The notes beneath the pieces are model-generated. The model saw only the letters and a program-made list of their open reading frames with translations, searched no databases and was not told the origin of the DNA. The translations under genes were made by a program, and so were the position numbers. From Bacteroidota bacterium (lineage in GTDB: Bacteria > Bacteroidota > Ignavibacteria > Kryptoniales > JAKASW01), in NCBI GenBank assembly GCA_023381615.1, contig JAMCQL010000024.1:3266-67265 (forward strand): a stretch of 64,000 nucleotides of DNA. The letters run 5' to 3'. Shown here piece after piece: positions 52,986-64,000 of the stretch (position 1 is its first letter; each line of letters starts with the position of its first letter).

Positions 52986-54386
52986 ATGGAAGCCGCAAAA
53001 TATAGGATCATGGTGATCGACGACGACGAAGGTATCGTCTATGTGTTAAGCCAGTTGTTCAACAAAGACGGATACTCCGTTGCAACTGCGGGCGATGCTT
53101 TTTCCGGCATCGAGCAGCTTTCCAGAGAGAAGCCTTCTTTGGTTTTCATGGATATCAACATGCCGGGAATGAACGGCTTAGATACATTGAAGGAGTTGAA
53201 GAGTAAATATCCGTCTTTGCCAGTCATTATGATAACAGGGTACAGCACCGTTGAAAATGCGGTGCGAGCTATGCAGTTTGGCGCGTTCGATTATCTAACG
53301 AAGCCTCTTGATGTCCAACAAGTCAGGAGAGTAACTTCAGCGGCAATCGCGAGGCTGGAAGGGATTAAGCAAACAAACAATTCTGCCGACACATTTAAGG
53401 CTGAATTTACTGATAAGTATGAGCTCGTCGGGAAGAGTCCGCAGATGCAGGAGATTTACAAACTTATCGGGTCAATCTCGACCACGCCCAACCTTACTCC
53501 TGTACTCCTTTTGGGAGAGAGCGGTACCGGAAAAGAACTTGCAGCGAGAGCGATACACAACTATGGTCCGGAATCAAATGAACCTTTTGTTGCCGTGAAC
53601 TGCACCGCAGTGCCGGAAACGTTGCTTGAGTCCGAACTCTTCGGCTATGATAAGGGGGCATTCACCGGGGCAAACGAAAGAAAGTTGGGAAAGTTTGAAG
53701 TTGCTAATAATGGAACAATCTTCTTGGATGAAATTGCCGATCTTCCGTTTTTGCTTCAACAAAAACTTCTCAGGGTGCTTCAAGAGCGCGAATTCGAACG
53801 ACTCGGCGGAAACGAAGCGCTTCACGTCGGAGCAAGATTCATTGCTGCGACAAACAAAGACATTGCGGAAGAAGTGAGAAATGGAAATTTCCGAAAGGAC
53901 TTGTTTTACAGACTCAATGTCATGATGATCCATTTGCCGCCTTTGAGAGAAAGAGGAGAGGATATACCGATTCTTGCGAATTACTTCTTGAGTAAATATT
54001 CGCGGCGTTTAAGAAAAAACATAACCAGCTTTTCCGACGCAGCGCTTCAAAATCTTTCCCGATATCCCTACCCCGGTAACGTTCGCGAGCTGGAGAATAT
54101 TGTGGAGCGAGCGGTCATCTTGGCAAAAGGAGAAGTGATCGCACCCGATGTCCTGGGAGAAGTCGCGGACTTAGTTCCGACAACAAGCGCAACTTTTAGA
54201 ATGAGTAATTTTGCAGAAGCGCGCAAAAATGCCATTGATAATTTTGAAAAAGACTTTGTGCTTAAAACGCTCCGGGAAAATCGAGGCAGCATCGCTGCGG
54301 CAGCGCGAGCATCTGGGATGACACGTCAGAATTTTCAGAGGCTTGTCTCCAAACATAAAATCAAGGTTAACGATTTCAGAAAATAG
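52986..54386 (+). CDS. Sigma-54-dependent response regulator, NtrC family
   Basis: 466 residues. Receiver domain (1-125) with acidic DDD at 12-14, phospho-acceptor D56 in FMDINMPGMNG and the TKPLD lysine. AAA+ domain: Walker A GESGTGKE (177-184), GAFTGA for sigma-54 contact (about 224-229) and Walker B TIFLDEI. C-terminal Fis-type HTH (GSIAAAARASGMTRQNFQRL). It activates sigma-54 promoters when phosphorylated, probably by the kinase at 54500. A candidate target is at 57179. Confidence 0.93.
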   Translation: MEAAKYRIMVIDDDEGIVYVLSQLFNKDGYSVATAGDAFSGIEQLSREKPSLVFMDINMPGMNGLDTLKELKSKYPSLPVIMITGYSTVENAVRAMQFGAFDYLTKPLDVQQVRRVTSAAIARLEGIKQTNNSADTFKAEFTDKYELVGKSPQMQEIYKLIGSISTTPNLTPVLLLGESGTGKELAARAIHNYGPESNEPFVAVNCTAVPETLLESELFGYDKGAFTGANERKLGKFEVANNGTIFLDEIADLPFLLQQKLLRVLQEREFERLGGNEALHVGARFIAATNKDIAEEVRNGNFRKDLFYRLNVMMIHLPPLRERGEDIPILANYFLSKYSRRLRKNITSFSDAALQNLSRYPYPGNVRELENIVERAVILAKGEVIAPDVLGEVADLVPTTSATFRMSNFAEARKNAIDNFEKDFVLKTLRENRGSIAAAARASGMTRQNFQRLVSKHKIKVNDFRK

Positions 54387-54499
54387 CAGAAGCTGAACCG
54401 ACTGTTGACTTGTCTCCTCTCGCAAACCAAGCTGTATGCGGATGCGAGGCTAACAAGCCTTAGAAGACCGCAGCGCTTTGGAAACCATCAACAGATAAG

Positions 54500-57016
54500 A
54501 TGATAAATTTCAATAGACTTTTTCCCTGGCTTTCGATCAGGACAAAATTAATTGTCGCCTTTGCGGGTTTGTCTATTATTCCCATTGCTGCGGTAGGTGT
54601 TTTCGCCATCATATCCAACGTCGACAGCTTGATCCTGACTGCTAAGAAAGATTTGAACAATAATGTTCAAATCGTTCGGCAAAGAGCCGGAAATTTTTTG
54701 AGCGGCGTTGAGACAGACATGAGATTTTTGGAGAACTCATACCCCGTCGATCACCTTGCCGGCGAACTCACAAACCATAGGATCCCGAAGGGAAACAGTG
54801 AATTGGATCTTCTTGAGTCTGAGTTTCTCGACTTTGTCAAAACCAAGAAGATCTATTACAGGGTAAGGATTGTCAATGACGAAGGAGCAGAAGTCGTTCG
54901 TGTGGAATCAACTTCCGGAATTCCTGACTCAGACAACTTTAGCATAGTTCCCAAAGACGGACTGAGTCATGTGAAGGAATTCTTCTATTTTCTTATGGCC
55001 CAGCCCCTTAAGAATGGTCAAATTGCCTTTTCGCCAGTCGAGCTTATGAGAAGAGATGGTAAGAGGGTTGCTGTTATAAGTTTCGCCACGCCTTTGTACA
55101 GCAAGACTAAAATGGTGGGAATCTTAATAGCGGATGTTTTTGCGAAAGATTTATTTCAGGTCATGGAGCCGGAAGCGGGAACAAAATTTGGTCAGGAAAT
55201 CCTCCTTGTCAGCGGTGAGGGCCATTACCTTTATGACTCGAGACAGAAAAAGAATTGGGACAAGCTTTTTGTCTTGATGAGAGACAATATCAAGAAGGAG
55301 TATCCGAGCCGTATTTCCTCGGAGATGTTGTCTGGACGAACAGGTATAGTTGCATCGGGCATAGACAAAGTTGTTTCATACGCACCGCTCTTTCCGGAAG
55401 AAGCCGGTATGAAAGGACAGAAACTCGGTTCAAATCTCACGATACCGTTGTTTGTTATCGAAGCCATCCCGAAAGAAATTTTGATGAAGCCGGTTTATTC
55501 TTTTGCCTTTGCTTTTGCGGGTGCGATCGTCGGCTTTCTTGTCTTGTCGGTTACGCTTGGCTTATTTGCGACTGAGCAATTTACAAGACCGATCGCCGAG
55601 ATGAGGAAGGGAGCGGAGATAATTTCAGGCGGAAATTATGAGCACAGGCTTCGGATTGAAACTCGTGACGAAATAGAGAAACTTGCCGACCAGTTCAATG
55701 CGATGGCAGCCGCACTTTCAGCACGTGATAAAGAACTGCAGAACCACAAAGCCAGTCTTGAGAGAAGTGTAGCTCAGCGAACGAGAGAGCTATTCGAGGA
55801 AAAGTCAAAACTGCAGACGATACTTGACAATGTTCCAAGCGCTCTCCTTGTTCTTGACCGACAGCTGAAAATACAAACGGTCAGCGCGGCATTCGGGAAG
55901 GTAACAGGTTTTCAATCCGAAGAAGTGATCGGCAAAGATTGCCGCGATTTGTTTTGCGGTGCGGGTCTCTGTCATTCATGCATCAGCCAGAGCGTGATTC
56001 AATCCGGCAAAGCCGAGGGGCATCTCGACCAAGTTGTCAATGCAAACGGTACCGACAGATATCTTGAGCACTTGGCAGTGCCCATGGAAAAGGACGGTAA
56101 GGTAAGCGCGATACTGGAAATTGTTACGGATGTTACAAAGAGAAAAAGGCTTGAACAGCATTTGATCAAAACCGAAAAGTTGGCAGCTATGGGTGAGCTT
56201 ACGGCATTTATCGCGCATGAATTCAGAAATTCGCTTACTTCCATAAAGATGATACTTCAACTATTCAGCGAGTCGGAAGAGCTTGACCGTTCTAAGAAGG
56301 AGTCTTTGACGGTAGCGTTGAATTCTACATACAGGATGGAATCGACAGTAACAGAATTGTTGGGTTTTGCTCGACCGACACTTATGGATTTCAAAACGAC
56401 TTCGGTTAACGAAGTTGTCGACGAGAGTATCGCTTTTGTGCGCCTGCGAGCCAATAAAGCTAAGGTTGCCATAAGCAAAGGCCTCAGTTCATCGCTGCCT
56501 GTACTGTCTCTTGATGTCGTTCATTTGCGAGAAACCATGGTGAACATTCTTCTAAACGCTGTTCAAGCGATTGAAAATCGCAATTTCTCGTTTTCTTCCA
56601 AAACAAAGAACAGCCAAGGCGATTCAGTGATCACGGTTACGACCAAAAAGATAAGGCTCAGGAAAACGCTTCGGGATTATTTATATGTAGAGTTTGGTGA
56701 ATCTCTTGGAGAAAGCCCAGTCGATTTGTCCGAAGGATCCTGCGGACAGGAAATTGTTCTGGAAAAAGGAGCTGAGTGTATAGAGATAGAAATTGGGGAT
56801 ACTGGGCCAGGCATTGAGAAGACAAACCTTTCTCGGATATTCGATCCGTTTTTTACAACAAAGCCCAACGGCACCGGGCTAGGTCTTTCAATGGCGAAAC
56901 GCGTCGTTAATGGCCACGGGGGAATAATAACCGTGGACAGTAAACTTGGCATCGGCACTACATTCAGGATCATCATTCCTCTTACCCATGCCACGCTTGC
57001 AGCTGTCGTAACGTAA
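54500..57016 (+). CDS. Membrane sensor histidine kinase with Cache-like, HAMP and Cys-rich PAS domains
   Basis: 838 residues. A membrane span (about 14-36), extracytoplasmic Cache-like sensor (40-330), second span (335-358), HAMP and coiled coil (360-440). The PAS domain (about 450-550) carries C481, C486, C491 and C494 (C-x4-C-x4-C-x2-C). H573 in IAHEFRNSLTSIK is the phosphorylation site, and the HATPase has DTGPGI and GTGLGLSMAKR. Two palindromes are in frame (54779 and 56727), the second inside the ATPase domain. Partner of the NtrC-type regulator upstream. Confidence 0.88.
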   Translation: MINFNRLFPWLSIRTKLIVAFAGLSIIPIAAVGVFAIISNVDSLILTAKKDLNNNVQIVRQRAGNFLSGVETDMRFLENSYPVDHLAGELTNHRIPKGNSELDLLESEFLDFVKTKKIYYRVRIVNDEGAEVVRVESTSGIPDSDNFSIVPKDGLSHVKEFFYFLMAQPLKNGQIAFSPVELMRRDGKRVAVISFATPLYSKTKMVGILIADVFAKDLFQVMEPEAGTKFGQEILLVSGEGHYLYDSRQKKNWDKLFVLMRDNIKKEYPSRISSEMLSGRTGIVASGIDKVVSYAPLFPEEAGMKGQKLGSNLTIPLFVIEAIPKEILMKPVYSFAFAFAGAIVGFLVLSVTLGLFATEQFTRPIAEMRKGAEIISGGNYEHRLRIETRDEIEKLADQFNAMAAALSARDKELQNHKASLERSVAQRTRELFEEKSKLQTILDNVPSALLVLDRQLKIQTVSAAFGKVTGFQSEEVIGKDCRDLFCGAGLCHSCISQSVIQSGKAEGHLDQVVNANGTDRYLEHLAVPMEKDGKVSAILEIVTDVTKRKRLEQHLIKTEKLAAMGELTAFIAHEFRNSLTSIKMILQLFSESEELDRSKKESLTVALNSTYRMESTVTELLGFARPTLMDFKTTSVNEVVDESIAFVRLRANKAKVAISKGLSSSLPVLSLDVVHLRETMVNILLNAVQAIENRNFSFSSKTKNSQGDSVITVTTKKIRLRKTLRDYLYVEFGESLGESPVDLSEGSCGQEIVLEKGAECIEIEIGDTGPGIEKTNLSRIFDPFFTTKPNGTGLGLSMAKRVVNGHGGIITVDSKLGIGTTFRIIIPLTHATLAAVVT
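54779..54795 (+). repeat. Short GGATCCCGAAGGGA palindrome in the kinase sensor domain
   Basis: AGGATCCCGAAGGGAAA (54779-54795), read in frame as RIPKGN in the sensor domain. Confidence 0.6.
56727..56748 (+). repeat. TGTCCGAAGGATCC palindrome inside the kinase ATPase domain
   Basis: TGTCCGAAGG (56727-56736) and CCTGCGGACA (56739-56748) form a near-perfect 22-bp palindrome. It encodes LSEGSCGQ within an insertion between the N box and the DTGPGI motif. Confidence 0.85.
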
Positions 57017-57027
57017 AATAGACCTTT

Positions 57028-57060
57028 ACGTGACCATCACCTTTCAGGTGACAGTCACGT
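57028..57060. repeat. GTGACC inverted repeat after the kinase
   Basis: ACGTGACCATCACCT (57028-57042) opposes AGGTGACAGTCACGT (57046-57060) with two mismatches. It matches the engB-end repeat at 31935. No T-run follows. Confidence 0.75.
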
Positions 57061-57178
57061 CTGGTCCAAGTGACAGATTTGCTTTACGTCAAGCAAGCAA
57101 TGCTTGTCGGTGCTGGATAAGTCCTGATTAGAATCAGCCAAACTTTAAAAATCTGCCTGTTTATTCAGCCAGACTTGG

Positions 57179-57194
57179 CGGCACACTGTTTGCC
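57179..57194 (+). promoter_or_regulatory. Sigma-54 (RpoN) promoter
   Basis: CGGCACACTGTTTGCC contains GG (57180-57181), exactly 10 nt, then GC (57192-57193). It matches the consensus GGCACR-N4-TTGC at every fixed position. A start near 57205 would be 16 nt ahead of the receiver gene at 57221 and feed the electron-transfer genes downstream. The NtrC-type activator 3 kb upstream supports the call. Confidence 0.75.
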
Positions 57195-57220
57195 TCTTTC
57201 AGGTTGAATGTATTTCTATT

Positions 57221-57613
57221 ATGGCACATCGGCCTAAAGTTTTAGTTTTGGATGACGACAGAAACATCCTCCTCGCGTTTCAAGATTTCTTGAAGGAAGA
57301 GGGTTGTGCTATGGTGGCGGCTTCTGCTGCAAAGGAAGCGCTATCCAGAATGGAAAAAGAAAAATTTGATCTTCTTATAACAGATCTAAGACTCAACTTG
57401 GAATCAGGAGTGACCTTTCTTATCCACGCAAAAAGATTGCAACCGAGCACACCGCTCATCGTGATAACGGGTTATCCGGATACAGTAAGCGAAGCTGAGT
57501 TAAAGGCTTATGGGGCGGATTATCTGATGTTGAAGCCGCTGGAACTCAAAGAGCTACAGCGAATAGTTCGCGCCTGTTTACACGACAATCCATCCAAAGA
57601 GCTTAACAATTGA
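57221..57613 (+). CDS. Receiver-only response regulator
   Basis: 130 residues comprising a single receiver domain: VLVLDDDRN (acidic pair at 11-12), phospho-acceptor Asp in LLITDLRLNLESG (about 54) and the conserved Lys in LMLKPLELKE. No output domain. It could be a phosphate sink or intermediate for the kinase upstream. First gene after the sigma-54 promoter; the following porin starts 45 bp later. Confidence 0.88.
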   Translation: MAHRPKVLVLDDDRNILLAFQDFLKEEGCAMVAASAAKEALSRMEKEKFDLLITDLRLNLESGVTFLIHAKRLQPSTPLIVITGYPDTVSEAELKAYGADYLMLKPLELKELQRIVRACLHDNPSKELNN

Positions 57614-57658: not shown

Positions 57659-59026
57659 ATGGATCACACGGCAACCAAGAAAACGTTAGCCAGAAAAAGC
57701 GGACCAAAAATTTCGTTCGTCTTAGCTTTGATGGGGGCTATCGTGATTTTCTCGAGTTCAAAAGGGTATTCAATTCCGAGTTATGCGCGTCAGACGGGTT
57801 TGGCATGCAGCGCTTGTCACTACAATTTTCCCCAGCTTACCCCGTTTGGCAGACTTTTCAAACTAAACGGCTATACCATGGTAGGATCACCGACTTTGGT
57901 ATCTACACACGATGAAGAAAAAGATATGCAGATACTCAGCAGCTTTCCTTTGTCGGCGATGGTGATGACTTCATTCAGTCAGGTGACGAAGGCGACGCCC
58001 GGAGCAGATGCAAGTGCGACAATGTTCCCACAGCAGTTAAGCCTCTTCGTGTCCGGCGAGTTAACTCCAAAGTTAGGTTCTTATATTCAGCTCACCTACG
58101 ATCCGACTTCCGGGACAATCGGTATGGACATGGCTGAGTTTCGATATGCAAATCACACTATGCTCGGCTCGAAAGACTTGCTCTACGGATTAACACTGAA
58201 CAACAACCCAACGATGCAGGATGTTTGGAACACGACACCGGCATGGGGGTTCCCGTATGTATCCTCGTCTTCAGCACCCGGACCGAGCTGGACTCCAATC
58301 CTTGCCAATACCATGTCGGGCAATGTTGTGGGGCTTGGTGCTTATGCTCTGTATGACAACCTCGTCTATGCCGAGGTTAGCGCTTATCATTCTGCGATCC
58401 AAGGCTTGTCTTATCCGGCAGATTCGACATGGACGAACAACATAAAGGGAGTATCTCCTTATTGGCGTTTGGCATTGCAGGTCAATTCGGGAAGTCAATA
58501 CTTAGAGGTTGGAACATTCGGACTTGCATCGAATATGTTTCCTGCAGGAATCTCAGGACCGTACAACAAGTACACGGACATCGGAGTTGACGCCCAGTAT
58601 GAGAAATCGCTCGGCGGCGGCGAATTAGTTGCCCACGCGAGCTACATAACCGAGAAGCAGAATCTTGATGCGACATTTGCATCCGGCGGTTCGGCATCCA
58701 ACAGCTTAACACTCAACAGTTTGAAAGTTGACGCTAACTACAATTTCCCCTCAATGTTTGCTTTGGCTGTGGGATATTTCTCAACGACCGGCACCAGCGA
58801 CGCGATTTTCTACGCACCCGCTCCGGTTTCGGGGAGTGCAACAGGCTCACCGAGCAGCAGCGGCGTGACGGGGCAAATTTCATTTATTCCCTGGCTGAAC
58901 ACTCAGATCGCATTGCAGTATGTTGCCTACTCAAAGTTTAACGGCGGTTCGACAAACTACGATGGCTCCGGGAGAAACGCTTCGGACAACAATACACTTT
59001 ATTTAGTTACATGGTTAGCATTCTAA
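57659..59026 (+). CDS. Cyc2-like outer-membrane cytochrome-porin fusion
   Basis: 455 residues from ATG 57659 after CTGGAGGT. A signal peptide precedes YSIPSYARQTGLACSACHYN and FPQLTPFGRLFKLNGYTM, which match the heme-domain signature of Cyc2 (ARQTG, one CxxCH, FPxLTxFGRxFKLxGY). The rest alternates beta-strand-like segments and ends in Phe (YLVTWLAF), as an outer-membrane barrel does. Characterised Cyc2 proteins oxidise extracellular Fe(II). The family also has members of unproven role, so iron oxidation is inference. Confidence 0.75.
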   Translation: MDHTATKKTLARKSGPKISFVLALMGAIVIFSSSKGYSIPSYARQTGLACSACHYNFPQLTPFGRLFKLNGYTMVGSPTLVSTHDEEKDMQILSSFPLSAMVMTSFSQVTKATPGADASATMFPQQLSLFVSGELTPKLGSYIQLTYDPTSGTIGMDMAEFRYANHTMLGSKDLLYGLTLNNNPTMQDVWNTTPAWGFPYVSSSSAPGPSWTPILANTMSGNVVGLGAYALYDNLVYAEVSAYHSAIQGLSYPADSTWTNNIKGVSPYWRLALQVNSGSQYLEVGTFGLASNMFPAGISGPYNKYTDIGVDAQYEKSLGGGELVAHASYITEKQNLDATFASGGSASNSLTLNSLKVDANYNFPSMFALAVGYFSTTGTSDAIFYAPAPVSGSATGSPSSSGVTGQISFIPWLNTQIALQYVAYSKFNGGSTNYDGSGRNASDNNTLYLVTWLAF

Positions 59027-59040
59027 AAAGGAAGACTACG

Positions 59041-59508
59041 ATGAAAAAAACTATTCTCGCAGCGATTTCGCTCGCAGCAATTATTTTCTTCATGATGGGC
59101 TTCGAGAAAGTCGACAGCACTTCTTTGCCGAAGGGTGAGAAGACGGCATATTCTCAGAAAGAGAAAAAGTCCGCTGTTGACAATGGTATCGGCCCAATCA
59201 AAGAAGTGAAATTAGGACCGATAGATCAGAGCATGGTTGATAATGGCAATGCAATATTCTATTCAAAGTGCTACTTGTGCCATGACGTGGACCAGACAAA
59301 GTTGGCGCCGCCGCTTCGGGGTGTCGCGAAAAAGCTCTCTCCTGCCTTTATCATGAACTATCTGCTTAACACCGCTGAAATGCAGAAGAAAGATCCTATA
59401 ATAAAAGCACTGCTTAAGGAATACTCGAATGTTCCTAAGATGCCCGACCAGCAGCTCACAAAAGAGCAGGCGCGTGAGGTGCTTGAGTTCCTGAGAACTA
59501 TTGAATAG
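59041..59508 (+). CDS. Periplasmic monoheme c-type cytochrome
   Basis: 155 residues from ATG 59041. N-terminal signal or anchor (about 4-21), a Lys/Glu-rich linker, then a class I-type heme domain with CYLCH and a likely axial Met in VPKMPDQ. It could carry electrons between the Cyc2-like porin upstream and the pentaheme cytochrome downstream. 15 bp after the porin gene. Confidence 0.85.
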   Translation: MKKTILAAISLAAIIFFMMGFEKVDSTSLPKGEKTAYSQKEKKSAVDNGIGPIKEVKLGPIDQSMVDNGNAIFYSKCYLCHDVDQTKLAPPLRGVAKKLSPAFIMNYLLNTAEMQKKDPIIKALLKEYSNVPKMPDQQLTKEQAREVLEFLRTIE

Positions 59509-59587
59509 CTGAATATTAATCCGACGCTCCCGCTCTCTTTTGCCGAGCGGGGGCGCCACAAATTGTTTTCTCTGTGACAGACATGCC

Positions 59588-60097
59588 ATGAAAAAATTTC
59601 TCATATTAATTGTAACAGTGATTGGCTTCGCGGCTGGTATATATACGATGCGTGGCGCAATTGATAAACATTACGAGTTCACGCAGCCGATAGATTTCAG
59701 TCATTATGTGCACGCGTCGAAATATAAAATTCCGTGCATAGCTTGTCACCAACACGTCCTTTTCGGTGCGCGTGCAGGAATTCCAAACATAGAAATATGC
59801 GGTGCCTGCCACTCTACCCCAATGAAGAAGACACCTGGAGAAGAGCAGGTATTCGGGTATGTCAAGAGTCATAAACAAATACCGTGGTACTCGATCTACT
59901 ACGTACCGGACTATGTTTACTTCTCGCATCTGAGGCATGTAGTAATTGGAAAACTGGACTGCAAACTTTGTCATGGTGATATGGCGGCGTTTACTTCACC
60001 TCCGATCACGCAATTTCTCAAAATACGAATGAGTAACTGCATCGACTGCCATCAGAAAAGGCATGCCAGCACCGACTGCTGGCAATGCCACAGATAA
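59588..60097 (+). CDS. Pentaheme cytochrome c, ActA/QrcA-like
   Basis: 169 residues from ATG 59588. An N-terminal membrane anchor is followed by QPIDFSHYVHASKYKIPC and five CxxCH motifs (CIACH, CGACH, CKLCH, CIDCH, CWQCH). The QPI-FSH-HA start, AGIPNIEICGACH and VPDYVYFSHLRHV are the pattern of ActA of alternative complex III; QrcA has six hemes. It would accept or donate electrons at the periplasmic face of the complex encoded by the next three genes. Confidence 0.85.
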   Translation: MKKFLILIVTVIGFAAGIYTMRGAIDKHYEFTQPIDFSHYVHASKYKIPCIACHQHVLFGARAGIPNIEICGACHSTPMKKTPGEEQVFGYVKSHKQIPWYSIYYVPDYVYFSHLRHVVIGKLDCKLCHGDMAAFTSPPITQFLKIRMSNCIDCHQKRHASTDCWQCHR

Positions 60098-60149
60098 TGG
60101 TTTGACGATTTTGGAAACGCCAAGACTTGCGCAAATGGAGAAACTTTGA

Positions 60150-62339
60150 ATGCAAATAAATAGACGAGACTTTGTTAAACTTCTCGGTGGTTCACTAATC
60201 GGTTTCGCAGCAGGTGGAGTTGGTGAAGCTCTTCTTAAGATTCCTAATTCCGTTAAACCGATCTTGTATGCAGGACCTCGAGTCGAGACGTGGAAACTCA
60301 CAACTTGCACGAAATGCCCGGGCGGATGCGGACTGCGCATTCGTATGATTGATGACTTTCCGATACAGGCATTCGGAAACCCGTTGTCGCCGATCAACGA
60401 GGGCGGCGTTTGTCCGATAGGGCTGACCTCAATTGAAAGTTTATATCACCCCGATCGCCTCACATCTCCCATGAAAAAGGTGAACGGGGAATTCCAGAAG
60501 ATATCGTACTCGGAAGCTTACGGAATTTTGTCGCAGGGATTAAAGCAGAACATGGGCAGTGCGAAGGATGGCAAGGCGGCCTTCGTTGCACAGACTGAAT
60601 CAGATTTCATGGCGAATCTCATACGGGAATTCATGAGCGGTATGGGCTCGGACAAGGTTGAGATCGACAACTTCTCTGCCAATTCTGCGATGCCGTATAA
60701 TCGGATTACGGATGGTCGTCCTGACTTTATCAATTTTGGAACCTGCGATTTCATTTTGAATTTTGGTGCGCAGTTCACGGAGATTTCGGAGAGCCCGCTT
60801 TATTTCACGCGTGCTATAAACGAATTCAAAGCAAAGAAAAATGAGTTCATCACATTTTCTCCGAAACTTACCCCAAGCGCTTACAAAGCGAAGCGCTGGA
60901 TCCCGATTGCCCCAGAGTATTATGAGGACGCGGCACTGGGAATCTCCTACGTAATCTTGAAAGACGAAACCTACGACAAAGCTTTTGTCCAGAAGCAATT
61001 CAAAGATTTCGATGCATTTAAGGAATTGATTCTGCAAGACTACAGTCCCGCGGCGGTCGAGAGTAGAACGGGAGTGGCTGCGGAAGATATTGTAACAATC
61101 GCCAGAAAATTTTCCGGTGCATCGTCTCCCGTCGCTTATTTTGATGAGTCGATTCTCTATTCTTCAAACGGAATCAGAAACGCATTTGCCGTGATCGCTC
61201 TTAACGGACTCAAGGGATTTGCTGGTTACGGAAAATTGAAGGGGCAAGAACTTCCGGATTTCGAAAGTGGTAAAGAGACAGACAAGTCCAAACAAGCATG
61301 GAACAAAAACATGCTTCTCGGCGACAACGATGTCAAATTGCTAATGCTTTACAAAAACAACTTCCTGTTCAACTCGCCGAACTCAGAGGAGCTTCGCAAG
61401 GCATTAGCGGGCATACCGCTCGTCGTCAGCTTCTCACCATTCCTCGATGAAACAAGCGAACTTGCAAACCTGATAATTCCGGACCATGATGATCTGGAAA
61501 AACTTGATGCAATTGCACTGACAGTTACCGGTAGCCCCACGATAAGTACCCAGCAGCCGATTGTAAAGCCGTTTTACTCCACCGTTCACACCGGCGATGT
61601 TTTAGTCTCGCTTGTAGGCGATCTGAAATTATCCCCAAAGTGGGCTTACAAAAATTACGAGGATTATCTTCAGACATATCTGAAACCCGTTTACAATCAC
61701 GGCAAAGGAATGCTGATGAACCAGAAGAAGCCAACCGAACTTGAAAAGAGTCTGCATCAGGCGGGATGGCAGCTGGCTTCCTATTCGAGTTTCGATGAGT
61801 TTTGGGAACAAATGCTCAGGTACGGTGGGTGGTGGGATCCTTTTCCAAAGGTCTCCGAATACAAACCTACACTCACTCTCGATAAAAATAATTTGATTGC
61901 AGACGACAATTCCGGATCACAAAATGTGGAACCAAAGGGCGACTCTCTTCGCCTGAACATTTTTGTAAAGGACCTCGACTACAAGGGAGACATGGCACGG
62001 AATCCTGTCCTCACTGAACAGTTTGGTCTGGATTCGAATATTTACTATGACACTTGGGTTGAAATAAATTCCGCCACTGCAACTAAACTCTCTATCAGCG
62101 ACAGAAGCAAGGTGAGAATCAAAACAGCGAAGGGATCTTTTAAAGCTGTTGCCCTGCATAATCCGGCTGTAATGCTTACAAACATCGACGTTCCGTTCGG
62201 TTTAGGTCACACGGTTCAAGGAAAAACTTTCGGCATCAATCCGCTATCATATTCCGACAACGTGTTCGACGAAGCTACTGGAACGCCATCGTTTTCAGAA
62301 ACAATAGCCATGATTGAAAGAGCGGGCGATGGTATCTAG
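60150..62339 (+). CDS. Molybdopterin-oxidoreductase family subunit, ActB1/QrcB-like
   Basis: 729 residues. A Tat signal (NRRDFVKLLGG) indicates export in folded form. CTKCPGGCGLRI followed by VCPIG gives the C-x2-C-x3-C...C site of the N-terminal [4Fe-4S]. I could not identify a Cys, SeCys or Ser metal ligand with confidence, so it may lack Mo as ActB and QrcB do. The C-terminal pterin-binding-like domain is present (about 610-729). The domain usually fused to a ferredoxin in ActB is here a separate gene. Confidence 0.82.
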   Translation: MQINRRDFVKLLGGSLIGFAAGGVGEALLKIPNSVKPILYAGPRVETWKLTTCTKCPGGCGLRIRMIDDFPIQAFGNPLSPINEGGVCPIGLTSIESLYHPDRLTSPMKKVNGEFQKISYSEAYGILSQGLKQNMGSAKDGKAAFVAQTESDFMANLIREFMSGMGSDKVEIDNFSANSAMPYNRITDGRPDFINFGTCDFILNFGAQFTEISESPLYFTRAINEFKAKKNEFITFSPKLTPSAYKAKRWIPIAPEYYEDAALGISYVILKDETYDKAFVQKQFKDFDAFKELILQDYSPAAVESRTGVAAEDIVTIARKFSGASSPVAYFDESILYSSNGIRNAFAVIALNGLKGFAGYGKLKGQELPDFESGKETDKSKQAWNKNMLLGDNDVKLLMLYKNNFLFNSPNSEELRKALAGIPLVVSFSPFLDETSELANLIIPDHDDLEKLDAIALTVTGSPTISTQQPIVKPFYSTVHTGDVLVSLVGDLKLSPKWAYKNYEDYLQTYLKPVYNHGKGMLMNQKKPTELEKSLHQAGWQLASYSSFDEFWEQMLRYGGWWDPFPKVSEYKPTLTLDKNNLIADDNSGSQNVEPKGDSLRLNIFVKDLDYKGDMARNPVLTEQFGLDSNIYYDTWVEINSATATKLSISDRSKVRIKTAKGSFKAVALHNPAVMLTNIDVPFGLGHTVQGKTFGINPLSYSDNVFDEATGTPSFSETIAMIERAGDGI

Positions 62340-62405
62340 GACGCATAAAACAGAAGAGTGTCAAACATTGCGAGAACCAACCTCTTCCAATATAGAGGAG
62401 TAATT

Positions 62406-63092
62406 ATGGCAAAATATGGGATGGTAATAGATCTTAACAAATGCACCTCCTGTCAGGCGTGTGTTACAGCGTGCAAGCTTGAAAATAATGTCCAGATTGT
62501 TTCTCCTGATGACGCATCTGAGGGGAGGACAATGTTCTGGATGAAAATGTTGACGTTGAAATACGAAGGCGATTATCCAAACGTTAAGCCCAAAGCAATA
62601 CCGCGTAATTGCATGCAATGCGATGAGCCGCCGTGTATCAAGGTGTGTCCGGTCAGAGCCACTTACAAAACGGAAGTTGGAATCGTGGCGCAGATCTATC
62701 CGCAGTGTATCGGCTGCAGGTACTGCATGGCAAACTGTCCTTACACGGTAAAAGTTTTCAACTGGTACAAGACGGAACAGCCAAAAGAAGTCGAGAAATG
62801 TGACAATCCCGATGTCTCTGTTCGACCAAAGGGTGTCGTCGAAAAATGCACATTCTGTGTCCACCGCCTGCAAATCGCCGAAGAAAAGGCAAAGGCGGAA
62901 CACAGGAAACTCCAGGAAGGCGATTACGTTCCTGCGTGTGTTGAGGTATGTCCTGCTAAGGCAATCTACTTTGGTGACCTAGATGACACCAACAGCGATG
63001 TCTCGAAAGCTTCTCACGATTATCGCGCATTCGGATTGCTGGAGGAGTTGGGCACAATCCCCAAGGTTCGTTACCTGAATGCAATTGAATGA
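62406..63092 (+). CDS. Four-cluster ferredoxin-like iron-sulfur subunit, ActB2/QrcC-like
   Basis: 228 residues from ATG 62406 after GAGGAG. Four Cys sets are intact: CTSCQACVTAC, CMQCDEPPCIKVCP, CIGCRYCMANCP and CTFC with CVEVCP. All sixteen ligands are present, so four [4Fe-4S] clusters are predicted, whereas ActB of alternative complex III has one [3Fe-4S]. The end LLEELGTIPKVRYL is typical. No signal peptide; it is probably co-exported with the Tat subunit before it. Confidence 0.88.
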   Translation: MAKYGMVIDLNKCTSCQACVTACKLENNVQIVSPDDASEGRTMFWMKMLTLKYEGDYPNVKPKAIPRNCMQCDEPPCIKVCPVRATYKTEVGIVAQIYPQCIGCRYCMANCPYTVKVFNWYKTEQPKEVEKCDNPDVSVRPKGVVEKCTFCVHRLQIAEEKAKAEHRKLQEGDYVPACVEVCPAKAIYFGDLDDTNSDVSKASHDYRAFGLLEELGTIPKVRYLNAIE

Positions 63093-63167
63093 AGGGAAAA
63101 TGATGCATCCGCTAGACGTCCGACCTCAAAAGCTTATGCAACCGCATCATAAATAAGGAAACACTAT

Positions 63168-64000
63168 ATGGCTTATCAAAATCTTAATGATGAAGATGAG
63201 GTGCTGTTCAAGCCTATCTATGAAACAGGGAGGGGCTTCTACGTTCTGGTTGCAATCCTTGTCGCTATTTTTCTCTTTGGCTTAGGCTGTTACATACGGC
63301 AGTTGATTCTCGGTTTGGGCGTCACGGGGATGGACGAACCTGTCACGTGGGCGTTCTACATCGTCGACTTCGTTTTCTTTATCGGAATTTCCCACGCAGG
63401 TACTCTTATCTCTGCGATACTCAGACTTTCAAAAGCAGAATGGCGCCGTCCGATCACGAGGATGGCGGAAGTAATAACCGGGATCGTTCTAGCGATTGGC
63501 GGACTTCACCCCATCATCGACTTAGGAAGGCCCGACAGGATTCTTCATTTGTTCGAAAGGGGAAGATTGCAGTCGCCGCTGCTTTGGGATGTGACGAGCG
63601 TTACGGCATATTTCACTGCCTCGACTATCTATCTGTATTTGCCTCTCATCCCCGACATTGCACTATTGCGGGATCGCGGCGGAAAACTGCAGAACTTCTA
63701 TAAAATCCTTGCGTGGGGATACCAAGGGACGGCGAAACAGAAACACACTCTCGAAAGAGCAATCAGTATCTTGATGGTGATGGTAATACCCATAGCCATT
63801 TCGGTGCACACCATAATCGCATGGATATTCTCTATGACATTGCAGCCCGGATGGCACAGCACGATCTTTGGTCCGTATTTCGTTGTGGGTGCTATCTATT
63901 CGGGAATCGCGGCTCTGCTAATCGTGATGATCGTGTTCAGAAAGGCGTACCACTTCGAAGATTACTTGAAGGAAATCCATTTTCAATATTTGGGAACGCT
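63168..64000 (+). CDS. NrfD/ActC-like polytopic quinone-interacting subunit (partial)
   Basis: At least 277 residues, cut by the window end. TM helices include FYVLVAILVAIFLFGLG, WAFYIVDFVFFIGISHAGTL and ILMVMVIPIAISVHTIIAW. GLGVTGMDEPVTWAFYIVDF and SHAGTLISAILRLSKAEWRRP match ActC of alternative complex III closely. It would exchange electrons with menaquinone. AAGGAA precedes the ATG. Downstream genes (ActD, E, F or an oxidase) lie outside the window. Confidence 0.87.
   Translation, partial: MAYQNLNDEDEVLFKPIYETGRGFYVLVAILVAIFLFGLGCYIRQLILGLGVTGMDEPVTWAFYIVDFVFFIGISHAGTLISAILRLSKAEWRRPITRMAEVITGIVLAIGGLHPIIDLGRPDRILHLFERGRLQSPLLWDVTSVTAYFTASTIYLYLPLIPDIALLRDRGGKLQNFYKILAWGYQGTAKQKHTLERAISILMVMVIPIAISVHTIIAWIFSMTLQPGWHSTIFGPYFVVGAIYSGIAALLIVMIVFRKAYHFEDYLKEIHFQYLGT

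Follow-up and report, generated by a model that had tools for sequence, protein, structure and literature searches.

With which quinone-linked complex of the inner membrane does Cyc2, the outer-membrane porin-cytochrome through which some bacteria draw electrons from dissolved iron and which is widely used as a marker of iron oxidation, exchange electrons? So far, the partner has been argued from co-occurrence: Cyc2 together with alternative complex III (ACIII) is known at the genome level (PMC4643136, PMC5566968), the placement of ACIII in the Cyc2 pathway has been termed "highly speculative" (PMC4643136), and bc1 has been suggested as a stand-in where ACIII is missing (PMC5566968). Here, we describe a 64,000-nucleotide stretch of DNA (positions 3266-67265 of contig C39; hereafter "the window") from an uncultured mine-type genus of Bacteroidota, in which the gene of a Cyc2-like porin-cytochrome shares one operon with genes of an ACIII-type complex. 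We propose, at a probability of roughly 0.58, that this operon encodes a dedicated trans-envelope electron conduit with net flow inward, for which Fe(II) would be the leading donor candidate. The assembly comprises 3.37 Mb and is 94% complete, and statements on whole genomes below rest on targeted searches.

A Cyc2-like porin in one operon with an ACIII core

On the plus strand, the gene of the Cyc2-like fused monoheme cytochrome and 16-strand porin (57659-59026; 455 aa) is followed by genes for a periplasmic monoheme cytochrome c (59038-59508; PF00034, 9.7e-8), a membrane-anchored pentaheme cytochrome c of the ActA/QrcA type (59588-60097; c7-type, NF041781, 6.4e-28), a molybdopterin-like subunit of the ActB1/QrcB type with a Tat-like RRDFVK start (60150-62339; NF041783, 7.1e-71), a ferredoxin of the ActB2/QrcC type (62406-63092; NF041782, 2.7e-81), and an ActC-type NrfD membrane subunit of 454 aa (PF03916) that begins at 63168, reaches the window's end at 64000, and ends at 64532 in the contig. 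By translation and family scans, all of them are in frame, and they lie 11, 79, 52, 66, and 75 bp apart. A preliminary description of 57659-64000 had listed these genes on one strand with short gaps; each is confirmed, as is the linkage of a Cyc2-like porin to an ACIII/Qrc-type complex that it had proposed for a genome of the FCB group, with the host now placed in the Bacteroidota and the NrfD subunit refined to the ActC rather than the QrcD type. The span itself leaves out the regulators (52986-57613), a promoter (57179-57194), and, past 64000, genes for a tetraheme cytochrome and a cupredoxin-like protein.

The porin contains SIPSYARQTGLACSACHYNFPQLTPFGRLFKLNGY; its only CxxCH is close to the N terminus, PQL (i.e., PxL) follows the heme site, and its length exceeds the family's minimum of 365 aa. 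Where the Cyc2 motif as published is AXPXFAR[QK][TY] upstream of the heme site (PMC8406198), the window porin has SIPSYARQT, i.e., two conservative substitutions, S for A and Y for F. Among 81 Cyc2-like open reading frames from named genomes, the strict motif is scarce (15/81), while a relaxed form, Px[FY][AS]R[QK][TY], is common (77/81) and CxxCH-x3-PxL is universal (81/81), and we therefore count the motif as present in its relaxed form only. An AlphaFold2 model built from 59 aligned proteins (pLDDT 88.2, pTM 0.84) shows 16 long strands, and a Foldseek search of this model against the PDB retrieved 16-strand porins, including OprP/OprO (2o4v 4.5e-8, 4rjw 5.0e-8) and general porins; OprP and OprO are also the fold homologues stated for Cyc2PV-1. 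By sequence, no relative of the porin was detectable among solved structures, and we found no solved Cyc2 structure. In a tree of Cyc2-like sequences the porin nests within the set, and since no named reference Cyc2 was included, this implies no placement relative to the published clusters 1, 2, and 3. The barrel of 16 strands and the place among Cyc2-like sequences that the preliminary description had envisaged are thus both borne out. In sum of its parts, i.e., the single N-terminal CxxCH with P-x-[FY]-A-R-Q-T before and PxL after it, the modeled porin fold, and the adjacent cytochrome c gene, the protein resembles Acidithiobacillus Cyc2 and Mariprofundus Cyc2PV-1, from which the S and Y residues set it apart.

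The departure from the strict motif lends some weight to the view that this Cyc2-like lineage handles another soluble redox substrate or a metal (detoxification, Cu, As, Mn) and that the quinone link would serve that purpose rather than iron. The function of divergent Cyc2 clusters has been termed uncertain (PMC8406198), paralogous type-B Cyc2 genes of the genus adjoin a gene that looks like a P-type ATPase of the copper-exporter type, and a cupredoxin-like gene belongs to the operon. However, heme motif, barrel, and cytochrome partner match those of characterized Cyc2, and the operon contains no resistance gene, so that we regard this explanation as quite improbable.

Other Cyc2-like genes were seen in the genus and beyond. 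The window's genome encodes a second, divergent Cyc2-like protein, AIPAFARKYGFTCTMCH (G000:C83, L004:8962-10221, minus strand), next to a MauG-type diheme peroxidase, and a similar protein follows the ACIII-Cox cluster of a relative (G007, L181). A third Cyc2 type, 491 aa long, shows 86-97% identity within the genus (L041, L049-L054; G011, G006, G002, G009, G012, G004), and in several loci a gene resembling a copper-exporter-type P-type ATPase lies nearby; G002 has three copies, one of them beside integrase-like genes, which suggests that this type spread recently. Full-length homologues of the window porin with 31-38% identity are borne on plasmids of Caballeronia, Methylocystis, Acidithiobacillus ferrooxidans, Acidiphilium, and Ideonella, and a c-type cytochrome gene lies 3' of the porin gene in all four cases inspected. 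The plasmid genes of A. ferrooxidans (L137, CP084173.1), which slightly overlaps a transposase gene, and of the iron reducer Acidiphilium cryptum (NC_009469.1) show equal identity and query span. A type-B Cyc2 query gave only weak N-terminal matches on plasmids.

An extra ACIII core without ActD, ActE, and ActF

Matches to solved structures identify the NrfD protein as ActC (6lod_C 1.8e-72, 248 bits; 6btm_C 7.2e-71), the ferredoxin as the counterpart of the C-terminal part of ActB (6f0k_B 6.2e-58), and the pentaheme protein as ActA (6btm_A 2.2e-25). The conserved ActC segments HAGTLISA and GMWxER are present in the NrfD protein, which the QrcD model NF041784 scores at 28-39 bits against a cutoff of 570. 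The best NCBIfam matches of A, B1, and B2 are QrcA, QrcB, and QrcC, with every score under the curated cutoff. In alignments, B1 retains the CxxCxxxC...C cluster motif and has neither Cys nor Sec at the usual position of the molybdenum ligand; ActB and QrcB have both been described as devoid of a molybdenum cofactor (PMC6303296). B2 reads CIGCRYC where the canonical ActB of the same cell reads CVGTRYC, which gives it 16 ligand Cys (plus one extra) versus 15, and it is predicted to carry four [4Fe-4S] clusters.

Judged by these comparisons, the putative complex is best described as an ACIII core A-B1-B2-C without D-E-F in a Qrc-like arrangement. With ACIII (ActABCDEF), it shares the homologues of ActA, ActB, and ActC in canonical order, with ActB divided over two genes, but full canonical membership was rejected given the missing D, E, and F subunits. 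Its B2 lacks the Cys-replaced [3Fe-4S] site and has four full Cys sets where canonical ActB is one Cys short, and the split of B1 and B2 and the location in a Cyc2 operon set it further apart. With Qrc (QrcABCD), the menaquinone reductase of sulfate reducers, it has in common the four-subunit A-B-C-D plan, the separate B and C genes, and the best family matches of its first three subunits, but a plain Qrc was rejected as well, given the ActC-type NrfD; a subunit A with five CxxCH rather than six hemes, scores under family cutoffs, and a different genomic context also set it apart from Qrc. Family and structure matches, the lack of Cys at the molybdenum-ligand position, and the ActC-type NrfD likewise dismiss a polysulfide, tetrathionate, or arsenate reductase; a linkage solely to polysulfide or tetrathionate metabolism, which the preliminary description had named as speaking against its own view, is not what the loci show, as they link the porin to quinone:cytochrome c modules instead. 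Of the two departures from canonical ACIII pointed out there, the 16-Cys ferredoxin stands, while separate B1 and B2 genes are no novelty, being known in iron oxidizers such as Ferriphaselus (PMC4643136).

The same genome holds a separate canonical cluster on contig C53, which encodes fused ActB, ActC, ActD/E, and ActF followed by SCO and cytochrome c oxidase genes, and the Cyc2-linked complex is therefore a second, extra, and dedicated one. Its ActC shares 35% identity with the canonical ActC of the same cell but 51-56% with Cyc2-adjacent ActC proteins of Nitrospirota, Gemmatimonadota, and Acidobacteriota; in a tree, Cyc2-linked ActCs stand apart from canonical ActC, with a long ActF branch that prevents any claim of a single origin. 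The preliminary description had looked to the genes after 64000 for actDEF and terminal oxidases, and neither is there: no actD, actE, or actF occurs in the operon or within 12 kb after it, the operon has no oxidase genes, and the canonical ACIII-oxidase cluster lies elsewhere in the genome. What follows actC in the contig, after 410 bp, is the gene of a tetraheme protein (385 aa, four cytochrome c sites of class I), overlapped by 26 bp by that of a 236-aa cupredoxin-like protein with weak similarity to plastocyanin/azurin; a B12 radical SAM protein and then unrelated genes come next.

One slot beside Cyc2 for two quinone-linked modules

The Act-type operon is present in 7 of the 13 genomes of the genus that were searched, with the window's own counted and one operon split across contigs. 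Its proteins are mostly 60-87% identical across the genus (52-64% for the cupredoxin-like protein), and its order is kept, including the upstream two-component genes and the two downstream redox genes. One relative (G002) has an additional cluster, in which the regulators, Cyc2 (62%), the cytochrome, and the cupredoxin-like gene are kept and a Rieske protein and a cytochrome b-c fusion occupy the Act slot. In four genomes (G003, G006, G009, and G012), Cyc2 (47-52%) and its cytochrome adjoin Rieske/cytochrome b-c genes, and a different Cyc2 type in G004 likewise has Rieske/cytochrome b-c neighbors. The monoheme cytochrome c is the constant partner of Cyc2 in Act-type and bc-type clusters alike. 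With two non-homologous quinone:cytochrome c modules in one slot, these arrangements point to a quinone-linking role of the slot beside Cyc2 and its cytochrome.

In G003 and G006, the only two of these genomes inspected further, the Cyc2-bc cluster adjoins a cytochrome oxidase operon, and the counterpart of this respiratory island in the window's genome and in G007 holds canonical ACIII. The island, made up of acc genes, complex III, Cox, and a nucleoside phosphorylase, was seen with canonical ACIII in some species (L177, L181) and with Rieske/cytochrome b-c plus Cyc2 in others (L179, L180).

Contigs of metagenome-assembled genomes can be misjoined, and Cyc2 and Act might then be chance neighbors without functional connection, an idea that has no positive support. 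The order is identical in independent assemblies of several species, the promoter architecture is shared, and the linkage recurs in other phyla; given this conserved arrangement, chance is refuted for practical purposes.

More widely, a scan of 84,980 species genomes yielded at least 566 related loci, and the best 80 of these, which are those closest to the window porin rather than a random sample of Cyc2, fall into the Bacteroidota, Gemmatimonadota, Acidobacteriota, Pseudomonadota, and Nitrospirota. Act-type linkage was also found in Nitrospirota (L093), Acidobacteriota (L122), and Gemmatimonadota (L100). Counted strictly, with an Act or cytochrome b-c gene required to score 100 bits no farther than 9 kb away, linkage holds for 14 of the 39 loci that have 6 kb or more of flanking sequence on each side (18/81 overall), compared to a chance expectation of a few per cent by our own estimate from three NrfD loci and a few bc genes per genome of 3-4 Mb. 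A looser count (27/57 loci) included weak cytochrome matches and was dropped in favor of the strict one. On the Cyc2-like tree, Act linkage requires several separate changes and bc linkage more. In the open-access papers searched, we found no report of an operonic Cyc2-ACIII linkage or of an ACIII/bc swap, none on Cyc2 together with sigma 54, and only one, incidental, on Cyc2 together with Qrc.

A predicted sigma-54 switch

The regulators and their candidate sites lie on the plus strand upstream of the Cyc2-like gene. Genes for an NtrC-family sigma-54 activator (52986-54386; response regulator, AAA+, and Fis-type HTH; PF00158 2.9e-67, PF00072, PF25601) and for a membrane histidine kinase with a PF21623/dCache-like sensor, HAMP, and PAS by Pfam (54500-57016) keep their positions in relatives. 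The first gene of the operon encodes a receiver-only response regulator (57221-57613; PF00072 1.1e-19) that is 71-83% conserved in Act-type operons. About 42 bp upstream of this gene, in the window and several relatives, stands a CGGCAC-N5-TTGC block that we predict to be a sigma-54 type -24/-12 promoter (CGGCACACTGTTTGCC, 57179-57194). The block, or a form with at most three mismatches to the full consensus, is found at all seven Act-type operon heads and at the G002 bc-type cluster. The exact core pattern occurs at a rate of about 0.0016 per 250 b of strand, and 6 of 8 heads match the fuller consensus with no more than one mismatch, as compared to 0.8% of random 250-bp stretches. Across the window the sigma-54 pattern is not enriched, and its support is the conserved position.

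A palindrome with the consensus TGNCAAGCNNNGCTTGNCA, a candidate site for the NtrC-type protein, lies 87-91 bp before the sigma-54-like site in 7 of 7 Act-type operons (57091-57109 in the window), with three mismatches in the window and 0-2 in the six relatives, whereas the best background match in 250 bp mostly has 4-7. Since these sites stand at fixed spacing and an NtrC-type gene is adjacent, the predicted sigma-54 switch is coherent, in a comparison of genomes that are related. The Cyc2 coding region itself contains another, near-perfect copy of the palindrome (57801-57819; one mismatch). The 410-bp gap between actC and the tetraheme gene (64533-64942, contig C39) is shorter in relatives but present and may hold a second promoter.

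Direction of electron flow and the electron donor

In the proposed conduit, the Cyc2-like porin-cytochrome would pass electrons one at a time to or from a redox partner outside the cell, be it a reductant or an oxidant, the soluble monoheme cytochrome c would carry them across the periplasm, and the Act complex A-B1-B2-C would make the connection to the quinone pool on the periplasmic side. The tetraheme cytochrome and the cupredoxin-like protein probably shuttle electrons between the Cyc2 branch and the housekeeping ACIII-cytochrome c oxidase, and the adjacent histidine kinase/NtrC pair would turn the operon on via the sigma-54 promoter. For the protein families themselves, activities are established: Cyc2PV-1 oxidizes Fe(II) (+208 mV; PMC8406198), and the same kind of module serves ACIII to oxidize quinol and Qrc to reduce menaquinone (PMC13059093). 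Net uptake, in which the Act complex would function as a quinone reductase, seems most likely, judging from the analogous case of PetI in Acidithiobacillus, a special, Fe(II)-induced bc1 that serves uphill flow from iron (PMC2754497). We favor uptake because the canonical ACIII already covers quinol oxidation and because the two inspected relatives place Cyc2 beside an oxidase. The rus/petI system of A. ferrooxidans similarly combines Cyc2, a periplasmic cytochrome, and a copper protein with a second complex III devoted to iron (PMC2754497), but there the petI bc1 operon is separate from cyc2 while the ACIII core lies inside the Cyc2 operon of the window, which in turn lacks oxidase genes and has sigma-54/NtrC regulation.

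Several points weigh against this proposal. The direction is not readable from sequence, as ACIII normally oxidizes quinol. Iron is a plausible substrate only, and Cyc2 homologues are found in many organisms not known as iron oxidizers (PMC8406198, PMC5566968). The preliminary description had also raised carbon fixation, and a targeted search of the 13 genomes found no RuBisCO, which leaves autotrophic iron oxidation that relies on the Calvin cycle without support; a PF16114 search for ATP-citrate lyase matched no positive control and is uninformative, and it is consequently not established that CO2 fixation would require reverse electron flow. In addition, an ActC of 70% identity was found in a genome from another family of the class (G193), where the A-B1-B2 genes and a homologue of the tetraheme protein accompany it; this locus (L199, G193:C24) also contains Rieske, cytochrome b, and 11-, 6-, and 4-heme cytochromes but no Cyc2. 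The Act core and the tetraheme protein thus look like a module that also serves other cytochromes and is not exclusive to Cyc2.

Some of these points would also fit electron export, in which the Act complex oxidizes menaquinol and passes electrons via the monoheme cytochrome to the porin, which, under low oxygen, would reduce Fe(III) or some other acceptor outside the cell. Such a role would agree with the usual function of ACIII as a quinol oxidase (PMC13059093), with the proposal of Cyc2 as a terminal ferric reductase in anaerobic Acidithiobacillus (PMC8790237), and with a genus that looks organotrophic and lacks RuBisCO in the genomes searched. Moreover, in G011 (L058:2087-5195), cytochrome b and 11- and 4-heme cytochromes of a kind known from metal-reducing systems lie directly upstream of the Cyc2 operon. 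Yet quinol oxidation is already served by the housekeeping ACIII, the Cyc2-bc cluster lies beside an aerobic Cox operon in the two inspected relatives, and minerals are ill-matched to a single-heme conduit (as argued in PMC8406198); we consider export unlikely and retain net uptake as the preferred direction. The cytochrome b/11-heme/4-heme sets of G193 (L199) and G011 (L058) resemble an extracellular electron transfer cluster.

Implications for Cyc2 and its quinone partner

It is possible, and we suggest it tentatively, that the two ACIII-family complexes of this cell run oppositely, i.e., that the housekeeping ActBCDEF-oxidase system oxidizes quinol while the trimmed, four-cubane, sigma-54-controlled core at Cyc2 reduces quinone. 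If true, this opposed pair would be the ACIII counterpart of PetI/PetII, and the core next to Cyc2 would be a cassette for which a bc complex can be exchanged. Both partner alternatives that had been discussed for Cyc2, ACIII and bc, are now seen genetically in one genus and one slot, and a defined operon with a predicted switch makes the partner question directly testable. The quinone-linked type of Cyc2 is thereby extended to apparently organotrophic Bacteroidota as well as to Acidobacteriota, Gemmatimonadota, and Nitrospirota.

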